Assembly: GCA_945911685.1 (NCBI GenBank)
Contig: CAMEAW010000018.1
Coordinates: 1 to 34,521, forward strand
Length of the DNA stretch: 34,521 bases
Source of the DNA: Bordetella parapertussis
Lineage (GTDB): Bacteria > Pseudomonadota > Gammaproteobacteria > Burkholderiales > Burkholderiaceae_B
Direction of reading: 5' to 3'
The notes below the pieces were generated by a model. It was not told the origin of the DNA. It was given only the letters and a program-made list of their open reading frames with translations, and searched no databases. Within the stretch, counting starts at the first letter, position 1. The number at the start of each line of letters is the position of its first letter. A program made the translations under genes and the position numbers. Below are positions 7,348 through 24,214 of the stretch, piece by piece.

Positions 7348-7349
7348 CG

Positions 7350-9218
7350 TTAACGTCCTACCGCGTAACCTTGCATGCCACGGGGATTCGCAGCTGCACG
7401 TAATAATAATCTACCATTCAAACCCGGCTCACGTGTGCAGGCCGACATGCGCCCTTCAGACCACTCTGCACCGACTTTTACCTCGTGCCCAGCGTCGCGC
7501 AACGCTTGTAGCGTGCCCTCTGGAAAACGTGACTCTAAGGTGATTTGGTTATAGCGCAACGAGCGCGGCCAAAACGAAATCGGAAAATGATCCACGTGCC
7601 ACGCCGGATATTCGATCGCCTCTTGAAGATTCATACCGTACACCGCATGGCGCAAAAAGAATTCAGTACTCCATTGATCTTGTTGATCACCGCCCGGGGT
7701 ACCAAACACCATATACGGCAAGCCGTCGCGCAGCGCCATCGAGGGCGATAAGGTGGTGGTGGGTCGCTTACCCGGCATCAGCTGCCCATGCACGTTGTCA
7801 TCAAACCACGTCATTTGTAAACGCGTACCCAGCGAGAAACCCAAGGCAGGAATCGCTGGGCTTGAAGATAACCAACCACCTGACGGCGTAGCCGAAACCA
7901 TGTTGCCTTTCGCATCAATCACGTCGATGTGACAGGTGTCTCCGATGAAGACCTCTTTCTTGGCCCATTCACTGACAGGTGGCAACGCTGCGAAGGTCGG
8001 TTCACCCACACCAAAGCGCGTATCTGACACTTTTAGCGTGCGCGCTGCCGCCTCAAGATCAGGCAGCTTTGCCTGACGCCCGCCGGGCTGACCCGCTTCA
8101 AACAATTTGGCGCTCAGTGCTCCGATACGCGCATAGCGAGCTTTGCCATATTCGTCTGACAACAGCTCTGCCATTGGGATCTTCGCAAAAAGCGGATCAC
8201 CGTACCAAGCCATGCGATCAGCCATCGCAAGTTTTGTGGCCTCAGCCACGCGATGTACAAATTCAGCGGAATCAGGCGCAAAATTCTCAAGACCTGCGTG
8301 TTTCAGAATGGATAGCTGCTGCAACATGACCGGGCCCTGTGACCACGGGCCACACTTGGCCACGGTGTAACGACCAAATTCAACAGTGTGTGGCTCTTCA
8401 TACGTTGGCGTCCAGTTTGCGAGGTCGTCGTAACGTAACAAGCCGGTGTTGCGTTCACCCGTCGTGTCACGTATCGGTTGGTCGGTATAAAACTGATCGA
8501 TTTCTTGCGCGATGAAGCCCCGATAAAAAATCTCAAACGCCGCCTCGATCGTGCGTACGCGATCACCTGCACCGACTGCTGCGGCCTCGGTTAACAGACG
8601 CGTGTACGTCTGCGCGATCGCTGGGCTTTGAAACAATTCACCTGGCTTCGGTATCTTTCCGTGAGGAATCCACACATCAGCTGAGGATTTCCATTCGGAC
8701 GCAAATAAACTTTGCACAGCCAAAATCGCTTGCACCGTGCGCGGCAATATCGGGAAGCCGTCGCGCGCGTAGGCAATCGCTGGCGTCATGACTTCAGCCA
8801 GCGTCATCGTGCCGTAATCACGCAGCATTGTCAGCCAGGCACCAAATGCCCCAGGCACCGTAGCAGGCAGCAGCCCGATGCCTGGCACAAGCTCTAACCC
8901 CAGCGCTTTAAAGTAGGCGCAGGTCGCTAATTTTGGCGCAGGCCCCTGTCCACAGAGCACTCGCATGCGCTGCTCTTTTTCAGACCACAGCATGATCGGC
9001 ACTTCACCACCGGGCCCATTCAAATGGGGCTCAACAATTTGCAAGACAAAGCCACCAGCAACCGCTGCATCGAAGGCATTGCCACCTTTTTCAAGAATGC
9101 CCATTGCAGTTTGCGAAGCAAGCCAATGGGTCGAAGCCACGACCCCAAAGGTGCCGACGATCTCGGGGCGGGTGGTAAAGGTCGCGTCTTGCGCTGCGGA
9201 TTTATTTGCTACGGTCAT
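7350..9218 (-). CDS. gamma-glutamyltransferase family protein without signal peptide
   Basis: This 622-residue Ntn-hydrolase is of the GGT family. The N-terminal part has EKGGNAFDAAVAGGFVLQIV and NGPGGEVPIMLW. The autoprocessing site is GDTCHIDVIDAKGN, with the candidate nucleophile Thr428 followed by Cys where most relatives have Thr-His or Ser-His. The small subunit carries MVFGTPGGDQQDQ, the substrate-pocket glycine loop. There is no export signal: the protein starts MTVANKSAAQDATF. It should therefore act in the cytoplasm, unlike E. coli GGT. It lies between two Bug receptor genes with gaps of only five and two bases, so it probably acts on what they import. It could be an acylase or amidase rather than a glutathione hydrolase. 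Confidence 0.88.
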   Translation of the reverse strand: MTVANKSAAQDATFTTRPEIVGTFGVVASTHWLASQTAMGILEKGGNAFDAAVAGGFVLQIVEPHLNGPGGEVPIMLWSEKEQRMRVLCGQGPAPKLATCAYFKALGLELVPGIGLLPATVPGAFGAWLTMLRDYGTMTLAEVMTPAIAYARDGFPILPRTVQAILAVQSLFASEWKSSADVWIPHGKIPKPGELFQSPAIAQTYTRLLTEAAAVGAGDRVRTIEAAFEIFYRGFIAQEIDQFYTDQPIRDTTGERNTGLLRYDDLANWTPTYEEPHTVEFGRYTVAKCGPWSQGPVMLQQLSILKHAGLENFAPDSAEFVHRVAEATKLAMADRMAWYGDPLFAKIPMAELLSDEYGKARYARIGALSAKLFEAGQPGGRQAKLPDLEAAARTLKVSDTRFGVGEPTFAALPPVSEWAKKEVFIGDTCHIDVIDAKGNMVSATPSGGWLSSSPAIPALGFSLGTRLQMTWFDDNVHGQLMPGKRPTTTLSPSMALRDGLPYMVFGTPGGDQQDQWSTEFFLRHAVYGMNLQEAIEYPAWHVDHFPISFWPRSLRYNQITLESRFPEGTLQALRDAGHEVKVGAEWSEGRMSACTREPGLNGRLLLRAAANPRGMQGYAVGR

Positions 9219-9223
9219 GGTGT

Positions 9224-10264
9224 TTAATTCGCCTTGATCCCGGCTTGCTTCGTGACCGGGCCATACAGGTCAAAGTCACGCTTGATTTCAGCAGCAAAAT
9301 CCGAAGTAGACCCCGAGGCGGCGATGATGCCGTAGCCTTGCAATTGTGTCTTGACTTCGGGTTCAGCTAACACCGCATTGATTTCGACATTCAATTGCTT
9401 GACGATCCCGTCAGGCGTATTGGCCGGCGCCAGCACGCCAACCCACGAATTTAACTCGACGCCTTGCACCCCCGACTCAGCGAAAGTGGCGACGTTTGGA
9501 AAGACCACCGAACGCTTTGGGCTGGGCACACCGATTGGGATGAGGCGACCCGCTTCGAGAAATTGTGCGACAGAGGACGCCGAGGCAAAGGCCAAGGGAA
9601 TATGCCCAGCCACCACATCGGCCGCTGCCGGGCCACCGCCCTTGTAAGGCACATGCACCAGATTCGCTCCTGATTGCTGTTTGAGTAGCTCTCCGGCCAC
9701 ATGCGTGATGCTGCCACTGCCAGACGTGCCAAACTCAAGGCCCTTGCCATTTGTCTTTGACAAGGCAATCACCTCTGCCAAGGTTTTCACGCCAACTGAC
9801 GGATGCGCCACGATAATGATGATCGAGTCACCCACCTTAGCAATCGGCGCAAAATCATTTAACGCATCAAATCCGGTGCGCTCGTACACGTGTGGATTAA
9901 TCACCAACGTACCGTCTAACGCCAGCAATAGCGTATAGCCATCGGGCGCTGCTTTAGACACCAATTGGGCGCCAATATTGCCTGACGCGCCCGGTTTGTT
10001 TTCAACGATCACTTGCTGATTTAAACGTTTTGCAAGTGCGGTTGCAACGATGCGCCCGCTTACGTCAGTCACGCCACCTGGAGCAAAGGGCACGATCAAA
10101 CGGATCGGCTTATTGGGATAAGACTGCGCTTGAGCACTGGATGTCGCGAAGAGTGGCGTTGCTGCAAACAGTAACGTTAGAAGACGGCGAGCCAACCGCG
10201 GTAGCGCAGGACCACCCAGTTTAAATAACTTGGCGCGAAAAATTAATTGAACAGTATCTTTCAT
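9224..10264 (-). CDS. Bug-family periplasmic solute receptor
   Basis: I place the start at the ATG at 10264 (346 residues). A GTG nine codons further upstream also fits the frame, but the ATG has an AGGA box about 11 bases ahead. After an unusually long N-terminus (about 45 residues with a twin-Arg-like RLARRLLTLLF segment) come SSAQAQ and the mature start YPNKPIRLIVPFAPGG. The Bug motifs VENKPGASGNIGAQL, APDGYTLLLALDGTLV and HVPYKGGGPAAADVVAGH are all present. It is the first gene of the Bug-GGT-Bug unit, five bases before the GGT gene. The ligand is unknown. The mature domain differs clearly from the Bug protein encoded at 6388-7347, so the two may bind different acids. Confidence 0.92.
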   Translation of the reverse strand: MKDTVQLIFRAKLFKLGGPALPRLARRLLTLLFAATPLFATSSAQAQSYPNKPIRLIVPFAPGGVTDVSGRIVATALAKRLNQQVIVENKPGASGNIGAQLVSKAAPDGYTLLLALDGTLVINPHVYERTGFDALNDFAPIAKVGDSIIIIVAHPSVGVKTLAEVIALSKTNGKGLEFGTSGSGSITHVAGELLKQQSGANLVHVPYKGGGPAAADVVAGHIPLAFASASSVAQFLEAGRLIPIGVPSPKRSVVFPNVATFAESGVQGVELNSWVGVLAPANTPDGIVKQLNVEINAVLAEPEVKTQLQGYGIIAASGSTSDFAAEIKRDFDLYGPVTKQAGIKAN

Positions 10265-10427
10265 GAAGTCAGTAATCCTAGCGGGTGACACGATATTTTA
10301 AGCCCTAACTTAGAACATCGTTGAATTCAAGGCTGTGGGAGAGGCCGACACACTGCACGTCAATTTTGAAGCGTGTGGGCATTGAGCGCAGCGTAACTGA
10401 TTCTGGCGCCCTGCTCTCGGGCAGGTA

Positions 10428-11118: not shown

Positions 11119-11146
11119 GCCTACCAACCTAGCGGGGTTGGTGGGC
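11119..11146. terminator. hairpin between convergent genes, likely bidirectional terminator
   Basis: The left arm CCTACCAACC (11120-11129) pairs with GGTTGGTGGG (11136-11145), nine of ten positions, around a six-base loop. It sits exactly between the stop of the PEBP gene and the stop of the leftward CoA-transferase gene. No T-run follows in either direction, so it may act as a transcript end or RNA-stability hairpin rather than a classic intrinsic terminator. Confidence 0.5.
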
Positions 11147-12351
11147 TACGTGGAAGCGCGACCTAACCCACCCGCAGCCCTAAGTGCTTCAATTTCACTA
11201 GTCGTCATCCCCAGCACATCGCTGAGCACAACCTCTGTATGTTCACCCAACGAGGGCGAAGGGGTGCGCACCGATCCAGGTGTCGCTGACATACGAATCG
11301 GCACGCCGACCACGCGCACATGACCCGCGCGCGGATGCACCATATCAACGATCGCACCACGCGCAACAACCTGCGGGTGCTCAACAACTTGTTTCACGTT
11401 ATTGATCGAGCCCATCGGGATGCCTGCACCGACGAGGATGGCTTCCCATTCGTCAAAACTGCGCGTCAAGAAAACCTCTTGCAGTCTGTCAATTAACGCT
11501 TTGCGGTTTTGCATGCGTGCGCTGTTTGTGGCAAACCGAGGATCATGTGTCATGTCAGAGCAACCGATCAGCGGGCAAAACTCAAGCCATAACTTATCGC
11601 TACCTACCGCTAAAGCCAGGTCTCGTGTTTTTGTACGAAAGGTTTGATAGGGCAACAAGGCTTTATACGCTGTGCCCATCGGGCCTGCGATGGTACCTGT
11701 CGAAAAATAATCACCGATCATCGTGCTCAGCAACGAGAGTTGGCCTTCTAGCATCGAGATGTCGATCGACTGCCCCACCCCGGTAGCGTCTTTGGCACGC
11801 AGGGCCATCATGATGCCGAGCGCGGCATTCATGCCCGCCGTCAGATCGGCGATCGACACACCCGCGCGCGCGCCATGCCCACCCTCGTCGCCTGTCGCAC
11901 TGATCATGCCGCTTTCGGCCTGTACGATCAAATCAAGTGCTGGGCGGTCACGATAAGGGCCGTCTTGCCCAAAGCCTGAGATTGAACAGTAAATGATGCC
12001 GGGGTTACGCTTACGCGCCACCTCATAATCAACCCCTAATTTGACCAGCGTACCTGGGCGAAAATTTTCAAGCACCACATCGCAACGCTCGACCATCCGC
12101 AAAAAGGTCTCTTTACCCTCGGCGTTTTTTAGGTCAAGCACAATGCCTTGTTTATTACGATGAAGCCCAACAAAATAATCGGTTTCACCACCGGGCAATT
12201 TTGTGCCCCAAGCGCGCGCGATATCACCTTTGCCTGGCGGCTCGATCTTGATGACTTGTGCGCCATAGTCGGCCAGCATCGTTGAGCAAAAAGGCCCCGC
12301 CAAAGCATGACTAAGGTCAAGGATTTTGAGGCCTTCAAGTGGTAGTTTCAT
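11146..12351 (-). CDS. CaiB/BaiF family (family III) CoA-transferase
   Basis: This 401-residue protein has the family opening LEGLKILDLSHALAGPFCS and the conserved KIEPPGKGD. It also has NKQGIVLDLKNAEGKE and VLENFRPGTLVKLG, the usual CoA-binding and interdomain segments. The aspartate that forms the aspartyl-CoA anhydride in formyl-CoA transferase is expected in SIADLTAGMNAALG (about residue 168). The reaction would move CoA between carboxylates in the cytoplasm without ATP. It is the last gene of the seven-gene leftward unit, 16 bases after the fused 3-oxoacid CoA-transferase gene. It probably activates the acid captured by the Bug receptor encoded two genes upstream. The donor and acceptor are unknown. 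Confidence 0.93.
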   Translation of the reverse strand: MKLPLEGLKILDLSHALAGPFCSTMLADYGAQVIKIEPPGKGDIARAWGTKLPGGETDYFVGLHRNKQGIVLDLKNAEGKETFLRMVERCDVVLENFRPGTLVKLGVDYEVARKRNPGIIYCSISGFGQDGPYRDRPALDLIVQAESGMISATGDEGGHGARAGVSIADLTAGMNAALGIMMALRAKDATGVGQSIDISMLEGQLSLLSTMIGDYFSTGTIAGPMGTAYKALLPYQTFRTKTRDLALAVGSDKLWLEFCPLIGCSDMTHDPRFATNSARMQNRKALIDRLQEVFLTRSFDEWEAILVGAGIPMGSINNVKQVVEHPQVVARGAIVDMVHPRAGHVRVVGVPIRMSATPGSVRTPSPSLGEHTEVVLSDVLGMTTSEIEALRAAGGLGRAST

Positions 12352-12367
12352 GAGTATCTTCTGTGAA

Positions 12368-13762
12368 TTAACTTGGCTCCATCACCGTAAGATCTGGTGA
12401 CACAGCAAAGTCAATCTCGCCCATCGCCTTAACTTCTTCAGGTGTAAAGCCTGGTGCAATCGCCTCAAGCACAAAACGATCATTGACCCAATGCAATACC
12501 GCCAAGTCAGTCACTAACCAATCTACGCACTCGCGACCTGTCAGTGGGTACTTACAACGACGCGGCAATTTGGTTCTGCCCTTGCTGTCAGCGTGTTCCA
12601 TGACAATGATCAGCTCGACTTCACCAGAAATCAAATCCATCGCGCCGCCAATACCACCGCGGCGGGCATCGGTAATGCTCCAGTTCGCGACGTTACCGTC
12701 TTGATCGACCTCATACGCACCCAGAATGACGGTATCAATATGGCCGCCGCGGGCCATTTCAAACGACATCACACTTTCAAAGAATGACGTGCCGGGCACG
12801 GCCTCGACAAATTGACCGCCTGCGTTAAAGACATCGGGGTCGACTGCATCACCCGACACAATGCCGCCGTAACCTAGCACACCGTTTTCAGCGTGTAGCC
12901 AGACACCGCGACCACCCAAAAAGTTTGAGACCTGCGTGGGGATGCCAACGCCTAGGTTCACATAGGTGTTGTCTTTCACAATCTTCGCTGCATTTTTTGC
13001 AATGCCGTTGCGCGTCAGAGCTGGCTTACCGTTATAGGTACGCGCGCTGTCCGCTGGGCGCTTTTCTGCACGCGTTAACGTTTTGACATCGACCATATCG
13101 GTAATCTTTAATACGCGCGAAATAAAGATACCGGGCAAATCAATCAGCTCTGGAGGCAACTCGCCGACTTCAACGATTTCTTCAACCTCAACAATCGCAA
13201 TCTTTGCTGCTTTAGCAAACGCTGAATTAAAGTTGGCGCTACCGCCACGAAACTGCACATTGCCCGCACGATCAGCGCGATAAGCGCTCAAAAAGGCATA
13301 GTCCACCTGAATGGCATGTTCAAGGACATGTGGCTTGCCGTTGAAATAACGAACATCCTTGCCGTCAGCCAAGTCAGTATCGACCCCGGTTGGCGAATAA
13401 AACGCTGGGATGCCAGCGCCGCCAGCGCGGCAGCGCTCAACCAAAATACCCTGAGGTACGAGTTCGACATCAAGCGTGCCGGCTGCGATTCTTTTTTCGC
13501 CTTCGGTTTGCATTCCGGCTCTGATTGAAAACGCAGCAACCAGTTTTTTAACCTGATTGTTTTCAACTAACAGCTGACCTTTTTCACCGGCGGCGCCAAG
13601 CGAGTTACAGACCAAGGTCAAGTCTGTTGTACCTTTGTCGCGCAAAGCGAAAATCAGGTTATTCGGGAAACGATGTGCCAATCCAAATCCAGCGATCGCG
13701 ACACTTGCGCCCGCTTGAATATCTGCGATTGCCTGTGCGGCTGAGGCAACTACCTTATCCAT
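12368..13762 (-). CDS. fused alpha-beta family I CoA-transferase (3-oxoacid/acetate CoA-transferase type)
   Basis: The 464 residues contain both halves of a SCOT-type enzyme. The alpha part (about 1-225) has GASVAIAGFGLAHRFPNNLI and the LVPQGILVERCRAGGAGIPA signature. After a short linker the beta part (about 248-464) has YVNLGVGIPTQVSNFLGG and the active-site AENGVLGYGG, with the glutamyl nucleophile predicted at Glu292. Family I enzymes pass CoA through a glutamyl-CoA thioester. The fused form resembles mitochondrial SCOT and some bacterial acetate or propionate CoA-transferases, while the second copy in this cluster is split into two genes. It lies between the Bug gene and the CaiB-type gene on the minus strand. 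Confidence 0.93.
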   Translation of the reverse strand: MDKVVASAAQAIADIQAGASVAIAGFGLAHRFPNNLIFALRDKGTTDLTLVCNSLGAAGEKGQLLVENNQVKKLVAAFSIRAGMQTEGEKRIAAGTLDVELVPQGILVERCRAGGAGIPAFYSPTGVDTDLADGKDVRYFNGKPHVLEHAIQVDYAFLSAYRADRAGNVQFRGGSANFNSAFAKAAKIAIVEVEEIVEVGELPPELIDLPGIFISRVLKITDMVDVKTLTRAEKRPADSARTYNGKPALTRNGIAKNAAKIVKDNTYVNLGVGIPTQVSNFLGGRGVWLHAENGVLGYGGIVSGDAVDPDVFNAGGQFVEAVPGTSFFESVMSFEMARGGHIDTVILGAYEVDQDGNVANWSITDARRGGIGGAMDLISGEVELIIVMEHADSKGRTKLPRRCKYPLTGRECVDWLVTDLAVLHWVNDRFVLEAIAPGFTPEEVKAMGEIDFAVSPDLTVMEPS

Positions 13763-13810
13763 ACTGATCCTTTGTTCATAAGTTCACTGACTCGAACTAA
13801 GCCTTAGGGC

Positions 13811-14767
13811 TTAATCCATCTTAATATTCAAAATCTTGTTCAGCTCGGCCAATTGACGCTTTTCTTCAATCATCGCGGCCAAAAACTGTTGCGGGTTGAG
13901 CATTTTGAGCACTGAACCCGAAGCCTCGACGCGGGCACGCACTTCAGGTTGCGAAAAATACTTCACGCTCGCATCGTACAACACACGCACAACTTGATCA
14001 GGCGTGCCAGCGGGAGCAAGTAAACCATACCATGAGCCTGTGTTGTTGGGCATGCCTTGCTCATCCATGGTCGGCACCTCGGGCAAGGCCTTGGCACGCG
14101 TCTGAGAAGACAAGCCAATGGCGCGAAGCTTGCCCGACTTAATATGTGGCAGCATGGCCGATAAATTTAAGAAGGAAACGTCAACATGCCCGCCCAACAT
14201 ATCGTTGACAACTGGTGTGGCCCCTTTATAGGGCACGTGGGTCATTTTGATCTTCGCTTCAATTTGAAGAATCTCGCCCGCGAGATGGGTTGAGCTACCC
14301 GTACCGCTTGAACCATAGGTCATGACTTTTGTTTTGGCTAACTCGATGAACTCTTTGACGTTGGTGGCTTTGATGTGGGGACCAATCACCATCACATTTG
14401 GCACATCAATCAGCATCAAAATTGGCAAAAATTCTTTAATGCCGTCGTAGGGTGGATTTGAGCTAAAGACGGGCACTGCAGTGTGAGGCGCACCGGCGCT
14501 GGCCAACAGCGTATAGCCATCGGGGGCTGCTTTGGCGACAAAGCCTGTTCCAATCGAACCACTTCCCCCACCTTTTGTTTCGATCACAAAGGTTTGCCCT
14601 AGCGCCTGCGACAACCCGTTCGCAAGCTCACGGGCGATCTGATCAGCAGGGCCGCCTGCGGGGTAAGGCACAATCATTTTGACTGGTTTGTCAGGGTAGG
14701 TTTGCGCAGCCGCGAGCAAAGGCGCGAAAGCCATCGTCAAAAGAACCGCCCGTAAGATTTGCTTCAT
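13811..14767 (-). CDS. Bug-family periplasmic solute receptor of the catabolic cluster
   Basis: The frame is open to 14806, but I choose the ATG at 14767. It has AAGGGG about seven bases upstream and begins a proper signal peptide (MKQILRAVLLTMAFAPLLAAA-Q, 318 residues). Family motifs are YPDKPVKMIVPYPAGGPAD, TKGGGSGSIGTGF, APDGYTLLASAGA and HVPYKGATPVVNDMLGGH. The first loop of this group normally reads ENKxGASG; here it is ETKGGGSG, so the ligand contacts may differ. It is co-directional with the MBL hydrolase gene upstream and the fused CoA-transferase gene downstream, which points to import of the substrate of this cluster. Confidence 0.93.
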   Translation of the reverse strand: MKQILRAVLLTMAFAPLLAAAQTYPDKPVKMIVPYPAGGPADQIARELANGLSQALGQTFVIETKGGGSGSIGTGFVAKAAPDGYTLLASAGAPHTAVPVFSSNPPYDGIKEFLPILMLIDVPNVMVIGPHIKATNVKEFIELAKTKVMTYGSSGTGSSTHLAGEILQIEAKIKMTHVPYKGATPVVNDMLGGHVDVSFLNLSAMLPHIKSGKLRAIGLSSQTRAKALPEVPTMDEQGMPNNTGSWYGLLAPAGTPDQVVRVLYDASVKYFSQPEVRARVEASGSVLKMLNPQQFLAAMIEEKRQLAELNKILNIKMD

Positions 14768-14841
14768 TGTCATCCCCTTTTTAATTTTCTTAACCCTGAC
14801 CAGCAATACCCTAAACCAACGCGCAACGCGCTTGTTTTGAA

Positions 14842-15741
14842 TTATTCGCCACGTGCTTCAGGCTCGACAGGCTCGAAGCGATAACCTTTTGCGCTGTCGC
14901 CACGCACATAGCCACAGTGTGGCCAACCGAAGTGCACCGGAAAAATCATAGCGTTTCGCTCAGCAGCACGTTTAAGAAACAAGGCTCGTGAAGCGCGCGC
15001 CTGCTCAGCGTGCGCATCAATCCAAGTGTTGATGTGCGGCATCGCAATCTGCAAAGGGCTGTGCATCACATCGCCGGCAAAGATCGCTTCTTGCCCCTTT
15101 GACTGCAGCCGAAAGTGCAACGAACCAGGCGTGTGACCCGGCATGGCTTCAGCCTTCAAGCAACCCGCCACTACATCGCCATCATCGATTAGATCAATCA
15201 AGCCCAATTCATATAGCGGCAGCACGCTATCTTCAAACGAACCACTGATCACACCCTTATCGCCATTTTTATATGCCGCATGTGCAGCTTCAAAATCAAC
15301 GCGTGGCATCAAGTGGCGGGCATTCGGAAACATCGGCTCCCAGCGACCATCCACCATGCGCGTACCCCAACCCACATGATCCGGATGAAAGTGCGTGACG
15401 ATCACATGTGTCACGGATTTTGCGCTTGCGCCCGCCGCGTCTAGCCAGAGTGGCGTCAAGGTGTTGAGCATGTTCATCCGCTCTGACCCGCGCTTTTTGT
15501 GATTGCCAACACCCAGGTCAATCACGATCACGTTATCGCCCATGTGCATCACCCACAACTGCATGGCAACGATAAAGCGCTGTAGCTTAATGTTGTAGTG
15601 ATGTGGGGCAAGCCATGATAGGTGCGGCACGATCTCGCGCACATCTAACTCAGGAAACACAAAATCAGCCGCGTGCGTCGGGCCGCTATATTCAATGACG
15701 TTATAAATTTTTGCGTCGCCAACGTGACGAGAGTAGATCAT
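14842..15741 (-). CDS. MBL-fold metallohydrolase (lactonase-like)
   Basis: The 299 residues carry the complete metal site of the metallo-beta-lactamase fold. HFHPDH is at 117-122 (His117, His119, Asp121, His122), with His203 in PGHTPGSLHF, Asp224 in FAGDVMH and His270 in PVHFGWPH. Two zinc or iron ions would activate water for hydrolysis. The overall pattern is like bacterial lactonases and related hydrolases and unlike beta-lactamases; no signal peptide is seen. Within this catabolic operon it may open a lactone or hydrolyse a thioester or ester intermediate. An AAAGGC box lies about ten bases ahead of the ATG. Confidence 0.9.
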   Translation of the reverse strand: MIYSRHVGDAKIYNVIEYSGPTHAADFVFPELDVREIVPHLSWLAPHHYNIKLQRFIVAMQLWVMHMGDNVIVIDLGVGNHKKRGSERMNMLNTLTPLWLDAAGASAKSVTHVIVTHFHPDHVGWGTRMVDGRWEPMFPNARHLMPRVDFEAAHAAYKNGDKGVISGSFEDSVLPLYELGLIDLIDDGDVVAGCLKAEAMPGHTPGSLHFRLQSKGQEAIFAGDVMHSPLQIAMPHINTWIDAHAEQARASRALFLKRAAERNAMIFPVHFGWPHCGYVRGDSAKGYRFEPVEPEARGE

Positions 15742-15842
15742 GTGATGCCTTTGTAGTTTTAATATTGCTATACCAGTTTAACGAACCGTCAGCCCAAGCA
15801 AGACTACTCATGCTCAAGCTAGCGGTCGCAAATCACTTAATC

Positions 15843-16568
15843 CTACTCTACCAAACGATAGGTCAATCGCCACTTCGTATCGCGCTTTTGCCAAGGTGGT
15901 GGTCCATCCGAGAAAGAATTACCACCAGGATCAGCGCTTAATCTATCTTTCATAAACGACTGGGCCGATGCCTCATCCTTGATGCCGTACATCGCCAAAA
16001 AGTTTGGTGCACCGGGCTCGGGATGAAGAAAGGTACGCATATTCTTATAGCGTGCGCCGCTGACAAATCCATAGCCTGCTAATACTTCTGGCACATGAAT
16101 TGTGTTGTAGAACTCATTGAATTGCGCTAACTCAGCTTCACCTGACCCTGCGGCAGCGTTCATCCCGACCAGATACATGTACGGCGAAGCGGACACTTGC
16201 GCAGCTTGAGGATTATTTAATACGTGCTGCCACATCAAACGCCACTTGGTACTGCGCTTTTGCCAAGCCGCAGGGCCATCGCTATAGACCGGTCGCCCGT
16301 TTGCTGGCCCATCATTACGCGTGATGTAAAGTTGTGCCGCCTCTTTGCTTTCAATATCGTATGCGGCAATAAAGCGTGGCCCACGCGCACCACGTGTGTC
16401 GTCTTGCGCAAGCTCGTAACGGCGCCCATACAAAAAGCCGGGATTACCCGCCAATACTTCGGGTTTATGGACGTTTGAGTAAAAGTCATTAAACGCTGCA
16501 ATATCTGCAGCACTCGTATCGGCGGGGATATCCATGCCGACCCAATAGGTGTAAAGCGCGTCGCTCAT
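15843..16568 (-). CDS. tandemly duplicated small-domain protein (ferredoxin-like fold suspected), catabolic cluster
   Basis: The frame runs open to 16622, but the ATG at 16568 has AAAGGA seven bases ahead and lies clear of the upstream gene. The product is 241 residues of two obvious repeats, about residues 5-116 and 129-239. Each reads YxYxVGM, then FNxFYxxxHxPEVLAG, then GxRY, a FxAxYxI strand and finally SDGPxxWQKRxTKWRL. A repeated H(K/V)PEVL and the WQKR-TKWRL end are near-identical between halves. The size and the hydrophobic pattern suggest dimeric alpha-beta barrel domains (EthD- or DUF4286-like), which bind or isomerise small acids, but I cannot name the family. It lies 16 bases after the DUF35 gene, in the same transcript. 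Confidence 0.85.
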   Translation of the reverse strand: MSDALYTYWVGMDIPADTSAADIAAFNDFYSNVHKPEVLAGNPGFLYGRRYELAQDDTRGARGPRFIAAYDIESKEAAQLYITRNDGPANGRPVYSDGPAAWQKRSTKWRLMWQHVLNNPQAAQVSASPYMYLVGMNAAAGSGEAELAQFNEFYNTIHVPEVLAGYGFVSGARYKNMRTFLHPEPGAPNFLAMYGIKDEASAQSFMKDRLSADPGGNSFSDGPPPWQKRDTKWRLTYRLVE

Positions 16569-16584
16569 TTTTTTTCCTTTGCCG

Positions 16585-16986
16585 TCAGGCCAATTTAAAC
16601 ATTGGGATCGCAGGGCCCTCATCGCTCGGCTTAAAGGTCACCTCAACCTTCTGCCCGCAACGAATCGTATCCAAGTCGCAATCAACAATGTTCGTGAGCA
16701 TCGTGATGCCTTCATCAAGCGTGACATAGGCAATGGCATACGGCACTGGGCCCGACGTACGCGTGACGCTATAGCTGTACACCGTACCCGTACCTTTCAC
16801 TTGTTTAAATTCTGTTTTATCGCTAAAGCAAAACGGGCATAGCGCACGCGGGTAGTGATGATATTGTTTGCAGTCGTTGCAATACTTCATCATCAACTTG
16901 CCTTGTGTGGCCGCATCAAAATAAGGCTCATCGCCATAGTTGAGCTTTGGGGCAGGGATTTTTCTGTCTTGATAGGGTGTGGTCAT
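16585..16986 (-). CDS. DUF35 OB-fold / zinc-ribbon protein, partner of thiolase-like enzyme
   Basis: The 133 residues include a rubredoxin-like zinc ribbon with Cys36, Cys39, Cys50 and Cys53 (CNDC...CPFC). An OB-fold follows, with GTGTVYSYSVTRTSGPVPYAIAYV in two parts and a late CGQKVEVTF. DUF35 proteins bind acyl-CoA or form complexes with thiolase-like enzymes and MaoC hydratases. Examples are the DUF35 domain of ChsH2 bound to the steroid aldolase Ltp2, and archaeal HMG-CoA synthase complexes. The gene is four bases downstream of the thiolase-like gene, whose end supplies its ribosome site (AAAGAGAG). This strongly suggests a complex of the two. Confidence 0.93.
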   Translation of the reverse strand: MTTPYQDRKIPAPKLNYGDEPYFDAATQGKLMMKYCNDCKQYHHYPRALCPFCFSDKTEFKQVKGTGTVYSYSVTRTSGPVPYAIAYVTLDEGITMLTNIVDCDLDTIRCGQKVEVTFKPSDEGPAIPMFKLA

Positions 16987-16990
16987 GGCG

Positions 16991-18148
16991 TTACTCTCTT
17001 TCCATAATCAATGTGGCACTGCCGTGACGGGTACTGAGCGAGCCGCCGGTTCCGTGCGCCAAGGCAATATCGCAGTTTTTAACTTGCACTAAGGGATGGG
17101 CTTCGCCGCGCAATTGGCGTACAGCCTCAATGATTTTGGTGATGCCGCCACGGTTCACCGGATGGTTGTTACACATCCCACCGCCATCGGTATTGAAGGG
17201 CAATTTTCCTACCCCAGAAATCAAGTTGCCATCCATCACAAACTTGCCACCCTCGCCTTTTTTACAAAAGCCCAGATCCTCAAGCGTCATCACCACAGTG
17301 ATCGTAAAGCTGTCGTAAATTGAGGCGTACTTGATGTCGCTAGGCTTGACGCCGGCTTCGGCAAAGGCAATTGGACCCGAACGCACCGCACCGGTATACG
17401 TGATATCAATCTTGCCACCCATCTGACCCTTAGGTGATTCGCCCGCGCCAATTAACTTCACTAACGGACGTTTCAACCGTTTCGCAACCTCTGGGCTCAC
17501 CACGATGACCGCACCACCACCATCGGTCACCACGCAGCAATCCATGCGATGCAGTGGGTCTGCAATCAAAGGCGAATTCACAACGTCTTCGACCGTGACC
17601 ACTTTCTTTAAGTAAGCGTTAGGATTGTGTTGCGCATGGTGCGATGCAGAAACCTTGACCCAAGCCAGTTGTTCGCTGGTGGTACCAAACTCATACATAT
17701 GACGCATTGCAGCAAGCGCGTATAAATTTACCGTGACAGGCCCGTAGGGCATTTCAAACGGGGTATCTGGGATGGCGGTATCCAAGTCACGCGCGATCGT
17801 GCCAGGACGCCCAAACCCTGCACAGGTAATCAAGGCAACGCTACACTTGCCCGCCGCGATGGCTTCAGCCGCATGCGCGACTAAATACATGTAAGACGAG
17901 CCGCCGGTGTTGGTCGAGTCAGAGTGCTTAACTGTCAACCCCATGTAGTCAATCATATTGATGCCACCCAGGCTACCAGGCGCGTCGGTCGAGCAATAAT
18001 AACCATCGACGTCGTGAATGGTCAGGCCGGCGTCTTCAAGCGCCCCCTTGGCGCATTCAGCGTGCAAGTGTGCCAACGACATATTTGTGATTTTGCGAGC
18101 CGGGTGCTCAAAAATCCCGGCGATATAGGCCTTGCCTTTGATACTCAT
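16991..18148 (-). CDS. thiolase-like protein of the SCP-x/Ltp2 type lacking the nucleophilic cysteine
   Basis: The 385 residues have the SCP-x thiolase layout: an N-terminal KAYIAGIFEHPARK, the pairing region DVDGYYCSTDAPG and the late HPVNRGG and AHGTGGSLSTRHG loops. At the place where SCP-x thiolases have NNCxTGS, this protein reads NTGGSS, so the acyl-accepting Cys is probably replaced by Gly83. The SCP-x motif HDCF is YDSF here (Tyr278). His329 in NNHPVNRGG is kept. This combination, with a DUF35 gene next door, recalls Ltp2-type retro-aldolases rather than true thiolases. It may cleave a beta-hydroxyacyl-CoA. It is the first gene of the leftward unit, has an AGGGA box and faces the palindrome upstream. 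Confidence 0.88.
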   Translation of the reverse strand: MSIKGKAYIAGIFEHPARKITNMSLAHLHAECAKGALEDAGLTIHDVDGYYCSTDAPGSLGGINMIDYMGLTVKHSDSTNTGGSSYMYLVAHAAEAIAAGKCSVALITCAGFGRPGTIARDLDTAIPDTPFEMPYGPVTVNLYALAAMRHMYEFGTTSEQLAWVKVSASHHAQHNPNAYLKKVVTVEDVVNSPLIADPLHRMDCCVVTDGGGAVIVVSPEVAKRLKRPLVKLIGAGESPKGQMGGKIDITYTGAVRSGPIAFAEAGVKPSDIKYASIYDSFTITVVMTLEDLGFCKKGEGGKFVMDGNLISGVGKLPFNTDGGGMCNNHPVNRGGITKIIEAVRQLRGEAHPLVQVKNCDIALAHGTGGSLSTRHGSATLIMERE

Positions 18149-18168
18149 TGTGTTGTCCCTGTAAATCT

Positions 18169-18228
18169 TTTGGTTTAAACCAAATATTAGAACTGGTCGG
18201 CTGTCAGCCTCGTCTTGGTTTTATACCA
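18169..18228. promoter_or_regulatory. perfect 16-bp palindrome and a second dyad in the divergent control region (putative operator)
   Basis: TTTGGTTTAAACCAAA at 18169-18184 is a perfect palindrome, 20 bases upstream of the thiolase-like start codon. A related imperfect dyad TGGT-N5-ACCA lies at 18216-18228 (TGGTTTTATACCA). A further short inverted repeat, GGTAC-CTA-GATACC, lies at about 18302-18315, before the rightward gene. The 181-bp region separates the two halves of the catabolic cluster, so a single dimeric repressor or activator could control both. No regulator gene is present in the cluster. The dyads are seen directly; their function is inferred. Confidence 0.5.
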
Positions 18229-18329
18229 CTCAAATCACGCCTTTTGGCAGTGGTTTTTCTTTTTTCACCGAAAAGGATTTTTTGCTCTAAGCTATTGCTT
18301 AAGGTACCTAGATACCACTTGGAGACAAT

Positions 18330-19127
18330 ATGCCAGAGCAGTCATCACCATTACTTAGGTCGGTGCACGAGGGCGTCATGACGCTTGTCATGAATCGCCC
18401 AGAGCGTCTCAATGCGCTCAGCCCAGAGCTCTATGACCAGCTCGCGCAAGCGCTGCTTGAGGCCAAAGACAATCGGCAAATCGGAGCGATTGTGCTGACT
18501 GGCGCAGGCACCGCTTTTTGTGCGGGTGGCGATGTGGCGCGTATGGCCAACTCACCCGCAGAGACCCTATCGTTTGAGCAAAAGGTCGTGCGCCTGCGCC
18601 GGCGCAATCAAATTACCGAACTGCTTCACACCCTGCCCATTCCAACCATCGCGATGATTCGTGGCCCCGCTGCAGGCGCCGGACTGTCTTTAGCGTTGGC
18701 CTGCGATTTTCGGTATGCGGATGATTCGGCAAAATTCAAAACGGCTTTCATCAACGTTGGGTTACCTGGCGATTTCGGCGGGCATTATTTTTTACCGCGT
18801 ATCGTCGGTTTTGCGAAGGCTCGCGAGCTGTATTTGCTATCGCCCGCACTCGGTGCGCAGCAAGCGCAAGAGTTGGGCATGCTGACCGCCTTGTTTTCGC
18901 GCGACCGCCTTGAACCGGAGGTCACTGCAATCGCCCAAAAACTTGCCAACGGCCCGCGACAAGCCCTCGCGCTCATGAAAGACAACTTAAACCAAGCCTT
19001 GCAAAACACCTTAGATCAAACGCTGAATCAAGAAGCCATTAATCATGTGACCGCCACGCTCACCGCCGATCACAAAGAGGCAGCCCAAGCTTTTATTGAA
19101 AAACGCCCACCAAAATTTGAACACTAA
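18330..19127 (+). CDS. enoyl-CoA hydratase/isomerase family protein (PaaG-like active site)
   Basis: The 265 residues have the crotonase fold. The two oxyanion-hole segments are GTAFCAGGDVARM (about 60-72) and RGPAAGAGLSLALACDFRYA (111-130). Neither catalytic glutamate of a true hydratase is in its usual place. The region that normally holds the second Glu reads KTAFINVGLPGDFGGHYFLP, with Asp148. This is the pattern of PaaG- and delta3-delta2-isomerase-type members, which use an aspartate. So double-bond isomerisation is more likely than hydration. It is the first gene of the rightward unit, and the start is preceded by TTGGAGAC. It diverges from the thiolase-like gene. Confidence 0.92.
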   Translation: MPEQSSPLLRSVHEGVMTLVMNRPERLNALSPELYDQLAQALLEAKDNRQIGAIVLTGAGTAFCAGGDVARMANSPAETLSFEQKVVRLRRRNQITELLHTLPIPTIAMIRGPAAGAGLSLALACDFRYADDSAKFKTAFINVGLPGDFGGHYFLPRIVGFAKARELYLLSPALGAQQAQELGMLTALFSRDRLEPEVTAIAQKLANGPRQALALMKDNLNQALQNTLDQTLNQEAINHVTATLTADHKEAAQAFIEKRPPKFEH

Positions 19128-19213
19128 CTATCCATCAATATTTGTATCGCCATCGAAGTCGGACATCATTTACACAACTATTCTTATCAATATTTCAAGG
19201 AACCTAGTCAATC

Positions 19214-20113
19214 ATGAGCCGCTTATGTGAAGGACGCGTCGCAATCGTTACCGGCGCTGCACGTGGAATCGGGCGCGAATACGCCTTGCAATTAGCCGCT
19301 TGCGGAGCCAAGGTCGTTGTCAATGACCTCGGGGTATCCAGAGAAGGGCTGGGGCGAGACACCTCAGCCGCGCAACAGGTGGTTGACGAAATCAAAGCTG
19401 CCGGTGGCGAGGCCATCGCAAACTGTGACGACGTCTCTGAGTGGAAAGAGGCCGAGCATATGATCCACAGCACGGTCGAGCACTTTGGCAAGCTCGACGT
19501 TGTGATTAACAATGCGGGCATTCTTCGTGATCGCATGCTCGTCAACATGGAAGAAAGCGAATGGGATGCTGTCATCAAAGTTCACTTAAAAGGAACCTTC
19601 GCACCCTGCCACCACGCCGCCGTGTACTGGAGGGCGCAACAAAAACTCACCGGCGAACCTGTGAACGCCAGGCTCATTAACACTACGTCATTTTCAGGCT
19701 TGCTCGGTAACATTGGGCAAAGCAATTATGGCGCAGCCAAAGCAGGGATCGCTGCGTTCACCATCATCACAGCGCGCGAATTAAAGCGCTATGGGATCAC
19801 GGTGAATGCCATTAGCCCTCATGCACAAACACGGATGACCGAAAGCTTACGTGAGCGCACGCCTGAAGAAATCGCGCAGCGGCATCCTCGTTGGATCGCC
19901 GCGGCTGCAACGTGGTTAGCCAGTGCTGAAAGCTCTGAAGTCACCGCTCGAGTGTTTGAATTAGGCGGTGGTTTTCTTGCAGCGATGGAAGGCTGGCATC
20001 GCGGGCCCCAAGCCGAACCGATCGACAACCCGAACGCAATCGGCACCGTCATGCTGGACTTGGCACGGCGGGCGCGACGCAATGCGGATATGCGCGGTAA
20101 CGATCTGGATTAG
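19214..20113 (+). CDS. SDR family 3-hydroxyacyl-CoA dehydrogenase-like oxidoreductase
   Basis: The 299 residues carry all the SDR marks. The cofactor loop TGAARGIG is at 13-20, Asp38 (NDLG) points to NAD rather than NADP, and NNAG is at 99-102. The Ser159-Tyr172-Lys176 triad is seen as NTTSFSGLLG and NYGAAK. The sequence VVVNDLGVSREGLG with the (F/Y)GAAKxGI site resembles the dehydrogenase domain of peroxisomal multifunctional enzyme 2 and its bacterial relatives, which oxidise 3-hydroxyacyl-CoA. The protein has about 50 residues after the usual SDR core. It starts 86 bases after the crotonase gene (AAGGAACC box) and two bases before the CoA-transferase subunit A gene. Confidence 0.93.
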   Translation: MSRLCEGRVAIVTGAARGIGREYALQLAACGAKVVVNDLGVSREGLGRDTSAAQQVVDEIKAAGGEAIANCDDVSEWKEAEHMIHSTVEHFGKLDVVINNAGILRDRMLVNMEESEWDAVIKVHLKGTFAPCHHAAVYWRAQQKLTGEPVNARLINTTSFSGLLGNIGQSNYGAAKAGIAAFTIITARELKRYGITVNAISPHAQTRMTESLRERTPEEIAQRHPRWIAAAATWLASAESSEVTARVFELGGGFLAAMEGWHRGPQAEPIDNPNAIGTVMLDLARRARRNADMRGNDLD

Positions 20114-20115
20114 TC

Positions 20116-20787
20116 ATGATCAATAAGCGTGTTGACTCAATGGCGCAAGCTATACAAGGTATCAAGGATGGCGATGTACTGCTGATTGGCGGTTTCGGTA
20201 CGTCTGGCCGACCCGCTGAGCTGTTGGCCGGCGTCTTTGACTTAGGGGTGAAAGACCTTACCTTAGTGGCGAATAATGCAACGACCGGCACCGACGTCAT
20301 AGCGGATCTGATGCGAGCCAATCGAGTCAAAAAGATGGTGTGTTCGTTTCCGCGCGCCTTGGTCGGAAAGACTATCTTTGATGAACTGTACAGTGCGGGC
20401 AAGATCGAGCTTGAATTGGTGCCTCAGGGTACCTTGGCTGAGCGCATTCGAGCAGGTGCGGCTGGCATCGGTGGTTTCTTTACGCGAACGGCCGCGGGTA
20501 CCGAGTTAGCGCGCGGCAAAGAAACTCGCCTCATCGATGGACAAGAATACGTTTTTGAAAAACCACTCGTCGGCGACGTCGCGCTGCTTCAAGCAAAGAA
20601 AGGTGACCGCTGGGGCAATCTGGTTTACCACCGTGGCGCACGTGTCAATAACCCTATGATGGCCGGCGCAGCAAAACTGGTCATTGCGCAAGTCGACGAG
20701 TTTGTCCAATTAGGCGAACTCGATCCTGAACACATCATCACACCAGGCGTCTTCATCGACCGAGTTATTGAAATCAAACGGCGCTAG
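20116..20787 (+). CDS. 3-oxoacid CoA-transferase subunit A
   Basis: The 223 residues match the alpha subunit of PcaI/ScoA-type family I CoA-transferases. Features are GDVLLIGGFGTSGRPAELLAG, the LVPQGTLAERIRAGAAGIGG signature, TAAGTELARGKE, and the C-terminal VQLGELDPEHIITPGVFIDR. It starts two bases after the SDR gene. The protein ends with FIDRVIEIKRR. The DNA immediately after it repeats this end in another frame, which suggests the gene has acquired a new 3' end by recombination. It should pair with the subunit B encoded just downstream, moving CoA from succinyl- or acetyl-CoA to an acid, or the reverse. Confidence 0.94.
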   Translation: MINKRVDSMAQAIQGIKDGDVLLIGGFGTSGRPAELLAGVFDLGVKDLTLVANNATTGTDVIADLMRANRVKKMVCSFPRALVGKTIFDELYSAGKIELELVPQGTLAERIRAGAAGIGGFFTRTAAGTELARGKETRLIDGQEYVFEKPLVGDVALLQAKKGDRWGNLVYHRGARVNNPMMAGAAKLVIAQVDEFVQLGELDPEHIITPGVFIDRVIEIKRR

Positions 20788-20792
20788 GTACG

Positions 20793-20867
20793 TTAATCGA
20801 CCGTGTCATTGAGATAAAAAATGAAGTCTCTCTTACTTTTTACTGCGAGGCCATACAGAAAAAATGA
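20793..20867 (+). pseudogene. remnant 3' end of a second subunit A gene
   Basis: Frame 3 from 20793 reads LIDRVIEIKNEVSLTFYCEA and ends IQKK-stop at 20865-20867. It repeats the end of the intact subunit A, FIDRVIEIK. The two DNA copies (20751-20778 and 20792-20819) agree at about 22 of 28 positions, with most differences at silent third positions. The stop codon of the remnant overlaps the subunit B start as ATGA, the normal coupling for such gene pairs. It therefore looks like the tail of the original subunit A, left behind when the rest was replaced. It has no start codon and is not expected to make a protein. Confidence 0.6.
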
Positions 20868-21565
20868 AAGGGTTAACTAGAAAAGATATTGCACGTGTCG
20901 CAGCAGAAGATATCCCCGAGGGTTACTGCGTGAACCTCGGCATTGGTTTGCCGACCATGATTGCGGATTACATTCCCGAGGGGCGTGAGGTATTACTGCA
21001 GAGTGAACAAGGCCTGCTCGGACTTGGACCCGCACCCGAGCCCGGGCAAGAAGACGACGATGTCGTCGGTGCCGGCAAGTCGCACCTGACTCTCTTAAAG
21101 GGTGCCTCAGTGTTTAGTCATAGCGATTCTTTTTTAATGATTCGTGGCGGGCACATCGACATCGCCTGCTTAGGCGCCTTTCAAGTCGCCGAAAATGGCG
21201 ATCTCGCCAACTGGTCAACTGGCTCTTTAACTGAAACACCAGGGGTGGGCGGCGCGATGGACCTTGCAGCGGGCGCGGCCAGCGTCTGGGTGCTGATGGA
21301 GCATTGCCAGAGGGATGGTGCACCTCGGCTGCTAGAGCGTTGTGCTTATCCCTTAACTGGCCACAAGTGTGTCACCAGAATTTATACAAATTTTGCCTTA
21401 ATCGAGGTCACTCCACAAGGCTTCGTCGTTCAGCGCATCGCCGACGACATTGACTTTGATTCGCTACAGAAGCTGACCGGCGCCACGCTGCATCTCAGCC
21501 CGACCTGTCAACCCTATCGACCTCACCTCATCGCAAACGATGGCGCGTTGAGCGTTACACCGTAA
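20864..21565 (+). CDS. 3-oxoacid CoA-transferase subunit B
   Basis: The 233 residues match the beta subunit of family I CoA-transferases. They include CVNLGIGLPTMIADYIPEG, the active-site LQSEQGLLGLGP with Glu48 as the predicted CoA-thioester nucleophile, and MIRGGHIDIACLGAFQVAE. The nucleophile motif is SEQG rather than the usual SENG. GVGGAMDLAAGA and LTGHKCVTRIYTNFALIEV follow. The start codon overlaps the stop of the subunit A remnant. The intact subunit A ends 76 bases upstream, so direct translational coupling with it has been lost. The best ribosome box (GAGG) is about 13 bases away, which is weak. It is followed by the NMO-type gene after 12 bases. Confidence 0.93.
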   Translation: MKGLTRKDIARVAAEDIPEGYCVNLGIGLPTMIADYIPEGREVLLQSEQGLLGLGPAPEPGQEDDDVVGAGKSHLTLLKGASVFSHSDSFLMIRGGHIDIACLGAFQVAENGDLANWSTGSLTETPGVGGAMDLAAGAASVWVLMEHCQRDGAPRLLERCAYPLTGHKCVTRIYTNFALIEVTPQGFVVQRIADDIDFDSLQKLTGATLHLSPTCQPYRPHLIANDGALSVTP

Positions 21566-22546
<981 letters not shown>

Positions 22547-22691
22547 ATGTCTTCTGACAACAACTTGTATGACACAAAAGCGTGCCTAACAATTGATCGC
22601 GTAGCTGGGTTATTTTTAAAGTTAGAACCACACACCGTCGCGCGACACTTTTCTATCTACTCAACTAACAACAAGATCTCAGGAGTCAGCT

Positions 22692-23147
22692 ATGCTTGAA
22701 GTCGAATTTCCTTCAGATATGAAGCAATATGTTGGTCAAAAAGTTGGCAGCAGTGATTGGCTGACCGTAGACCAAAAACGGATCGATGACTTTGCTGCGG
22801 TCTCGGGTGACCACAACTGGATTCACATTGATCGCGAGCGTGCCAAACAACAAATGCCTGATGGTAAAACAATCGCCCACGGCATGCTCACGCTGTCTCT
22901 CGTCACCTACTTGGCCAGTCAAATTGTTCGGATTAAGCAACGCTCACGCGGGGTCAACTATGGCCAAAACAAAGTGCGCTTCGTCAGCCCCGTGCAATGC
23001 GGCGCTCGCATTCGCTTACACCGAACGCTCGAAAAATACGACGAGATCGAGGGCGGCGCACGGCTGACGTATAGCAACACCGTTGAAATTGAAGGCGTTA
23101 CAAAACCCGCACTCGTGGCAGAAACGCTTACCGTTGTTTACAGGTAA
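22692..23147 (+). CDS. MaoC family dehydratase (hotdog fold)
   Basis: The 151 residues have the hydratase-2 signature FAAVSGDHNWIHIDRERAK. The catalytic Asp40 and His45 stand in the DxNxxH arrangement; the usual Pro after Asn is Trp, as in NodN-like members. IAHGMLTLSLVTYL forms the central hotdog helix. The enzyme would add water to a trans-2-enoyl-CoA in the R direction. It complements the crotonase of the cluster, which seems built for isomerisation. A strong AGGAG box lies eight bases ahead. The 145-bp gap before the gene is AT-rich in its middle and contains no ORF I can support. Confidence 0.92.
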   Translation: MLEVEFPSDMKQYVGQKVGSSDWLTVDQKRIDDFAAVSGDHNWIHIDRERAKQQMPDGKTIAHGMLTLSLVTYLASQIVRIKQRSRGVNYGQNKVRFVSPVQCGARIRLHRTLEKYDEIEGGARLTYSNTVEIEGVTKPALVAETLTVVYR

Positions 23148-23251
23148 AGCGATACAACAGCACGCAGAGAAAGCACCTCAAGCGCGACAGTTCGCAGAGT
23201 CAACACCACAGCACTTCATCGCAGCACCATGACATACCCACAGGAGGCAAT

Positions 23252-24214
23252 ATGCGCATTCCACGTTTGATCCTAAGTTCTGTCCTGTCTTTTTTCACGA
23301 CGCTTGCATGTGCGCAAAACTTTCCGACTCAACCGATAAGATTGCTGGTGCCCTATGGACCAGGCTCGGGCACCGATGTCATTGCAAGACTGTTAGCTAA
23401 GCTTGCTGGCCCAGAACTCGGCCAGTCTCTCATCATAGAAAATAAACCTGGTGCCAACGGCACGCTCGGTGCGAGTCAACTGATCAATGCAAAACCAGAC
23501 GGTTATCTGTTGAGTATTGTGCCGGTCGGCATCTTTCGCCAGCAGCACGTCGTGCAAACCAACCTCGACCCTCTCAAACATCTCACCTTCATTAGCTCGC
23601 TAGTGGATTACAACTACCTGATTGCGGTGCGGGCAGACTCACGCTGGAAGTCTGTCAAAGAACTCGCCGTAGATGCCCAAGCACATCCGGGCTATCCCTT
23701 TGGCTCACCCGGTATTTTTAGTACACCTCAGTTATCGATGGAAGCCTTTGCCAGAGCCGGAAACTTCAAGGTCACTCACGTTCCATACAAAAGTGCGTCA
23801 GACATCGTCACGGGCTTAATGAGCGGCCAAGTCGATATCTTTATCGGAGCAGGTTCGCCAGCGCTTGACGGTTTTATTAAAGACGGTCGAGCCCGCCTAC
23901 TTGCCAGCCTGTCAGAGAGGCGTCTTGAGTCCTATCCAAACGTACCAACGTTAAAAGAAGAGGGTTTTAATGTAGTGGCGCTGTCGCCATTTGGTGTGGT
24001 CGGGCCGATTGGCATGGATCCGGCCATTATCAACAAGCTGGACCGCGCTTTTGCCATAGCGATTAAGAATCAAGAGTTTAGCGATATGGTGAAAAGAAAC
24101 TTGATGGAAATTAAGTATATGGGGCCAAAAGAATATCAAGAGTACGCTGAGAAGACAGCAGTGCTCGAAAAAGAGCAGATGCAACTTTTGCTGAAATCAA
24201 TGCCCAAGAACTAA
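23252..24214 (+). CDS. Bug-family periplasmic solute receptor, end of rightward unit
   Basis: This 320-residue protein has a signal peptide (about 1-21, ending ACA-Q), and AGGAGG sits just ahead of the start. The family signatures are FPTQPIRLLVPYGPGSGTD, IENKPGANGTLGASQL, AKPDGYLLSI and HVPYKSASDIVTGLMSGQ. The first loop reads GPGSGTD where other Bug proteins here have (A/P)xGGxxD. It is the second receptor in this cluster. The two catabolic half-operons each carry one, which suggests two related substrates or one broad class of acids. It converges on trxC with four bases between the stop codons. Confidence 0.93.
   Translation: MRIPRLILSSVLSFFTTLACAQNFPTQPIRLLVPYGPGSGTDVIARLLAKLAGPELGQSLIIENKPGANGTLGASQLINAKPDGYLLSIVPVGIFRQQHVVQTNLDPLKHLTFISSLVDYNYLIAVRADSRWKSVKELAVDAQAHPGYPFGSPGIFSTPQLSMEAFARAGNFKVTHVPYKSASDIVTGLMSGQVDIFIGAGSPALDGFIKDGRARLLASLSERRLESYPNVPTLKEEGFNVVALSPFGVVGPIGMDPAIINKLDRAFAIAIKNQEFSDMVKRNLMEIKYMGPKEYQEYAEKTAVLEKEQMQLLLKSMPKN

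Follow-up and report, generated by a model that had tools for sequence, protein, structure and literature searches.

The window analysed here is the whole 34,521-nt stretch of contig CAMEAW010000018.1, from an assembly filed as Bordetella parapertussis, and our subject is a catabolic locus at positions 11146–24214. The open reading frame (ORF) listing places 14 ORFs there in two diverging runs, seven per strand, separated by a 181-bp gap (18149–18329) between THI of the left run and ECH of the right run. Pfam families in the left run are CoA_transf_3, CoA_trans (fused A–B), TctC/Bug, Lactamase_B, DUF4286, OB_ChsH2_C with zf-ChsH2, and Thiolase_C_1; those in the right run are ECH_1, adh_short, CoA_trans (a split set), NMO, MaoC, and TctC/Bug. 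No regulator family was found by Pfam among the 14 proteins. The locus is a real, conserved, composite catabolic set that combines known enzyme families with an uncharacterised lyase subtype. A first-pass annotation had described 14 genes in two diverging runs with families that Pfam and NCBIfam now confirm, although two of its start sites have been corrected. In window coordinates, the features are as follows (CoA, coenzyme A; FMN, flavin mononucleotide).

11146–12351, minus strand: CTIII, class III CoA-transferase (CaiB/SUGCT-like; PF02515), Asp169
12368–13762, minus strand: ABfus, fused A–B class I (3-oxoacid) CoA-transferase (PF01144 twice; TIGR02429 and TIGR02428), Glu in AENG at 291 (AENGVLG)
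13811–14773, minus strand: Bug1, TctC-type periplasmic receptor (PF03401, 205.6 bits), start corrected from 14806
14842–15741, minus strand: MBL, lactonase-like metallo-hydrolase (PF00753), HFHPDH at residue 117
15843–16568, minus strand: DUP, tandem ferredoxin-like repeat, predicted single-chain dimeric α+β barrel (AlphaFold2 model and fold comparison)
16585–16986, minus strand: D35, DUF35 protein (ChsH2-type zinc ribbon plus OB fold; PF01796, PF12172), two CxxC motifs
16991–18148, minus strand: THI, predicted Sal/Ltp2-type thiolase-fold C–C lyase (motif and fold comparison), Gly83, YDSF at 278, NNHP at 327
18169–18184, no strand: perfect 16-bp palindrome TTTGGTTTAAACCAAA, candidate operator 21–36 bp before THI (conservation)
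18303–18316, no strand: near-palindrome GGTACCTAGATACC, second candidate site, beside ECH (intergenic alignment)
18330–19127, plus strand: ECH, crotonase of the PaaG/isomerase type (best relatives 6sl9/3hrx, Asp aligned), Asp in GLPGDFGG
19214–20113, plus strand: SDR, short-chain dehydrogenase (PRK07791-like; adh_short), YxxxK at 172
20116–20787, plus strand: CTA, 3-oxoacid CoA-transferase A subunit (TIGR02429, 304.3 bits, cut-off 128.5)
20864–21565, plus strand: CTB, 3-oxoacid CoA-transferase B subunit (TIGR02428, 271.8 bits, cut-off 243.55), Glu in SEQGLLG at 47
21578–22546, plus strand: NMO, PA1024-type FMN protein (2gjl/6e2a)
22692–23147, plus strand: MaoC, hydratase with an SGDHNWIHID motif, Rv0130-like (PF01575; 2c2i, 124.7 bits)
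23252–24214, plus strand: Bug2, TctC-type receptor (PF03401)

The 14 ORFs are real genes under selection. When each was compared with four near relatives (56 comparisons, 53 scorable), the ratio of nonsynonymous to synonymous substitution (dN/dS) was 0.003–0.122 at dS values of 0.16–1.84; NMO found no match in the related locus L004, and the best counterpart of Bug2 was just 30% identical in both L003 and L004. In ten proteins examined for their conventional motifs, every motif sought was found; the one missing element is the thiolase nucleophile.

A thiolase-fold protein with lyase motifs

THI has a glycine at position 83, where thiolases have their nucleophilic cysteine, and this glycine is found in all 90 aligned sequences. 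Its YDSF motif stands where BbsB and a Pyrococcus thiolase carry HDAF; Tyr278 is present in 90 of 90 sequences, and position 280 is serine in 89 and alanine in one. His329 aligns with the histidine of the thiolase GHP motif, and 88 of the 90 sequences retain Cys326. The nearest protein by predicted fold is the bile-acid retro-aldolase Sal. A thiolase fold without the nucleophilic cysteine and a catalytic tyrosine in a YDxF/Y motif characterize the Sal/Ltp2-type retro-aldolases, and THI has both. The protein that the first-pass annotation called thiolase-like is thus, judging from motifs and predicted fold, probably a retro-aldolase and not a thiolase.

THI departs from both known subtypes. In the CtSal–CtShy(DUF35) bile-acid side-chain aldolase (9MYR), Sal, which acts on C5 side chains, has an essential cysteine in YDCY and Gln352, whereas THI has Ser280 in YDSF and His329; the DUF35 of that system is also fused to a MaoC domain, whereas D35 is unfused. 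In the TcLtp2–ChsH2(DUF35) cholesterol side-chain aldolase (6OK1), the C3 side-chain enzyme Ltp2 has YDHF and the acid Tyr344, neither of which is found in THI; His329 falls near the place of Tyr344, with an alignment gap close by. The closest solved relative of D35 is the ChsH2(DUF35) chain itself (6ok1_B). With the DUF35 pairing taken from gene adjacency, we read THI as a putative DUF35-bound C–C lyase whose motif set is unlike those of both Ltp2 and Sal.

A search of 72,556 plasmid records matched THI at 60–80% in 35, and the name "thiolase domain-containing protein" appears in 16 of the best 25 rows. Seven annotated plasmid regions with THI were read. In six, the gene directly after THI encodes an OB-fold protein; in the seventh, from Variovorax WDL1, such a gene lies ~5 kb from THI. 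The neighbours are varying mixes of acyl-CoA dehydrogenases, MaoC proteins, crotonases, SDRs, CoA ligases, and Bug receptors. Should the YDSF group prove to be lyases, β-oxidation endings of this kind would be misnamed and a C–C cleavage step overlooked.

The two halves together and apart

A scan of genome contigs with THI yielded 286 relatives, and the best 80 were kept. Gene maps rely on tblastn; neighbour lists from the ORF caller are unreliable in high-GC loci and were not counted. The halves are together in all nine near relatives (L001–L009). In eight of them both halves, or the parts within reach of the contig, lie on one contig, and in L007 the sequence upstream of THI holds the same intergenic region, then 22 ECH codons and the beginning of SDR. 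The loss of all but these first 22 codons, so that SDR comes directly after (L007:1–410), is a deletion or a fault of the metagenome-assembled genome (MAG). All nine near relatives are MAGs, four titled Alcaligenaceae and two B. parapertussis; the latter title, which looks doubtful, is carried by MAGs with the locus or a relative of it at L002, L008, L017, L019, L027, L035, and L043.

The 181-bp intergenic region aligns end to end between the window and eight relatives, and the palindrome TTTGGTTTAAACCAAA recurs with at most two changes in nine of nine near relatives. Within three changes, it was found upstream of THI in none of the 21 loci L010–L030 and at none of the ECH ends of L102, L171, and L172, so an operator common to the unlinked relatives was rejected. 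A promoter scan gave fewer matches than shuffled sequences and was given no weight.

Outside the near clade the halves separate. In loci L010–L021 (THI identity 91–94%), all or part of the left half is present and the right half does not adjoin it; L016–L018 are without MBL, Bug1, and CTIII, and L020 (Zwartia vadi) has THI–D35 alone. A search of 23 genomes for SDR at E ≤ 1e-90 was positive in nine of nine genomes of the window group, three of three sisters (G010–G012), and two outgroups, and in none of the nine genomes G013–G021, which have THI at 91–93% identity and include three isolates (Zwartia panacis, hollandica, and vadi). Z. hollandica has matches to THI, D35, DUP, and ABfus. NMO is present at 78–81% in eight of these nine genomes, and the five loci viewed (L103–L107) have no other right-half genes. 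In the sister G012, six right-run genes lie in the same order on a different contig from THI; the MAG contigs of G010 and G011 are too broken to show all six together. In a tree of SDR, the window group falls with mostly Bordetella and Achromobacter, and the sisters fall with Cupriavidus, Pigmentiphaga, and others, with support (87/93) below the starred level. From this distribution we take the halves to be modules that are joined in one lineage. The single fourteen-gene pathway of the first-pass annotation therefore gives way to separable modules; that annotation had staked its reading on the halves staying together in related genomes, which they do within the immediate clade but not beyond it.

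The right operon has a further component in other genomes. A search for NMO in 399 Burkholderiales genomes was positive in 45 at E ≤ 1e-60 (55 places), and 20 places, mostly the best-scoring, were fetched. Two of these, L171 and L172, show the operon order ECH–SDR–CTA–CTB–NMO–MaoC–DUF35–THI. L185 has NMO with another THI–D35 pair, plus SDR and ECH at 39–45%, and L177 has NMO with THI–D35; THI was not seen in the remaining 16 fetched places. The terminal THI proteins of L171 and L172 are of a YDAF type. They resemble each other at 82%, and none of their matches in the 21 genomes G001–G021 exceeds 54%. Because these operons end in DUF35–THI, the right half of the window can be seen to lack an enzyme pair found in some of its counterparts. 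YDAF also replaces YDSF in the THI–DUF35 pairs of L023 (19172–20730), L177, and L185, and the DUF35 proteins of L171, L172, and L023 are without most of the zinc-ribbon cysteines.

Proposed chemistry and its alternatives

We infer, at roughly even chances, that the locus consists of two functionally coupled catabolic modules of separate origin that came to lie head to head in a single Alcaligenaceae lineage, apparently a freshwater one. In the left module, a Bug receptor would bind a carboxylic acid, MBL, perhaps with DUP, would open or rearrange its lactone form, and CTIII or ABfus would load CoA. THI–D35 would carry out retro-aldol cleavage of a β-hydroxyacyl-CoA to a shorter acyl-CoA and a carbonyl compound, with Tyr278 as the base and no acyl-enzyme, and the released oxo-acid would be recovered by the second CoA-transferase. 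The right module is best described as a β-oxidation-like set, with predicted activation by CTA/CTB, hydration by MaoC, oxidation by SDR, isomerisation by the PaaG-like ECH, and an FMN-dependent NADH:quinone oxidoreductase. It has no DUF35–lyase pair of its own, and the left-module pair may stand in for the missing one. The locus would then exemplify the merger of two catabolic operons across a new intergenic region that is itself conserved, one of the operons being without a terminal enzyme pair that it holds elsewhere. Of the earlier interpretation, the families, the CoA-thioester chemistry, and C–C cleavage as a step are retained, and the single ancestral pathway is not.

Two observations weigh against this proposal. 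Each of the genomes G001–G021 has two to seven THI-like matches, so that the coupling of left and right is something we propose and do not observe. Likewise, THI is near ABfus in just two of 20 fetched ABfus places (21 were found in the 399 Burkholderiales genomes, and stretches ending close to ABfus, such as L232, may hide a few), which weakens any fixed pathway; the 21st place, in Zwartia G014, has THI. THI, D35, and ABfus are contiguous in Agrobacterium vitis, but as a fixed triple they were rejected on the same count. The alternative that the two catabolic operons are unrelated in function and have nothing in common but a divergent promoter region, with the left lyase not serving the right module, is somewhat unlikely but must be taken seriously. 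The left half occurs without SDR in nine genomes, the halves lie on different contigs in the sisters G010–G012 (with the six right-run genes seen together in G012), each half of the window has its own Bug receptor, and every genome searched has other THI-like genes. Such an arrangement sits poorly with linkage and an intergenic palindrome that are kept in nine of nine near relatives despite gene dS of 0.16–1.84, and with the DUF35–THI pair that the right operon has in L171 and L172.

More specific assignments fare less well. BbsAB is the benzoylsuccinyl-CoA thiolase that acts with the CoA-transferase BbsEF in anaerobic toluene degradation, and the present locus likewise has a DUF35 and thiolase-fold pair beside a class III CoA-transferase, a crotonase, and an SDR. 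THI–D35 could then be a true thiolase of this kind, thiolysing a 3-oxoacid activated by a CoA-transferase, and the alignment of His329 with the GHP histidine and the retention of Cys326 are compatible with that role. We consider it improbable: the NCBIfam scores (D35 against BbsA, 42.5 bits; THI against BbsB, 158.8 bits) are far under the curated cut-offs of 250 and 750, the nucleophilic cysteine and HDxF motif of SCP2-type/BbsAB thiolases are replaced by glycine in 90 of 90 sequences and by YDSF. The locus also differs from the toluene set in having no acyl-CoA dehydrogenase among its 14 proteins. The right half also resembles the mycobacterial steroid C/D-ring (HIP) set (ipdAB, ipdC, echA20, ipdF) in kinds of family, namely a crotonase, an SDR, A and B subunits, and a FabK/NMO-like FMN protein. 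Passages of one report describe IpdAB as being without the CoA-transferase catalytic glutamate, with Gly57 in RHA1 (PMC5380842). That residue is present in CTB (SEQGLLG, aligned to 3cdk_B) and in ABfus (AENGVLG), and CTA and CTB both exceed their 3-oxoacid family cut-offs, as does the A half of ABfus (209.1 bits; cut-off 128.5), although its B half does not (225.8; 243.55). The first-pass annotation was thus right to call the A and B subunits ordinary. NMO, which it named an NMO-type flavoprotein, belongs to that family by Pfam but is closest to PA1024 (422 bits over 317 residues; best FabK, 206.7), and its score against the FabK model TIGR03151 is 253.7 bits, below the cut-off of 453.1. PA1024 of P. 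aeruginosa is described as an NADH:quinone oxidoreductase (PMC10033279), and by sequence match we predict this activity for NMO. An IpdAB ring-opening hydrolase is excluded by the retained glutamates, and a steroid C/D-ring set or a close cousin deserves next to no credence.

The closest solved relative of CTIII is the hydroxymethylglutarate CoA-transferase SUGCT (9br7, succinate–hydroxymethylglutarate CoA-transferase; 295 bits, DLTAG aligned with DLATG). We also considered that the left module degrades a 3-hydroxy-3-substituted dicarboxylic acid resembling 3-hydroxy-3-methylglutarate (HMG), by a bacterial route not described before. CTIII would form the thioester, THI–D35 would split it as HMG-CoA lyase would, with a thiolase fold and a new Tyr-Ser-His type, and ABfus, as a SCOT-type enzyme, would reactivate the released 3-oxoacid. 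This idea is a long shot. Against the succinate–glutarate CoA-transferase model NF052585, CTIII scores 315.4 bits, below the curated cut-off of 750. No described pathway matching the gene set was seen in search listings of the open-licence PubMed Central (PMC) literature, in agreement with the first-pass annotation. The deoxyribonate pathway was set aside by its description: lactonase, CoA-transferase, and thiolase steps appear in places in passages of PMC6365646, but the term "OB-fold" does not. A dicarboxylate study by randomly barcoded transposon sequencing (RB-TnSeq) was likewise rejected as a match, since nitronate monooxygenase, MaoC, and tricarboxylate go unmentioned in passages of PMC12543098.

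Remaining genes and neighbouring features

The relatives of MBL in the PDB are an organophosphorus hydrolase, a dihydrocoumarin hydrolase ancestor, and an acyl-homoserine lactonase. ECH scores 162.6 bits against E. coli PaaG (4fzw_C). The AlphaFold2 model of DUP has a mean confidence (pLDDT) of 91.3, and the residue pairs His34/Glu37 and His158/Glu161 are invariant among 36 aligned sequences. As a marker, DUP is matched in 13 of 399 Burkholderiales genomes at E ≤ 0.001, strongly in just one, and weakly in eight of 33 other THI-bearing genomes (best, 9.6e-9). Its start was corrected from 16622 to 16568 (M19), giving 241 residues, the length of most of its closest homologs; the 38-bp overlap of the DUP and D35 genes is therefore a start-site artefact. 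For Bug1, M12 or M14 (near 14773) is a more likely start than the TTG at 14806.

The right run varies among near relatives. NMO is absent from the right halves of L002 and L004 and is thus dispensable there. Among the seven near relatives in which the contig passes MaoC, a Bug2 ortholog is present in L005, L006, and L009 and not in L002, L003, L004, and L008; L002 has another receptor-like gene at this position. The dS of CTA is 1.5–1.75 in L003 and L004, as is that of CTB in L004, with most neighbours at 0.2–0.9. These outlying values and the missing Bug2 orthologs and NMO suggest piecewise gene replacement.

In L009, four ORFs (230–638 residues) separate ABfus from CTIII. By clustering, ABfus orthologs lie beside a luciferase-like monooxygenase and beside an α/β hydrolase in six of 20 loci each (e.g. 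L240, L241, and L245), possibly another catabolic set. A separate minus-strand cluster at 6388–10291 of the window has a γ-glutamyltranspeptidase-like gene (7350–9218) flanked by two more TctC/Bug receptors (6388–7347 and 9224–10291), and this cluster also adjoins CTIII in L004.
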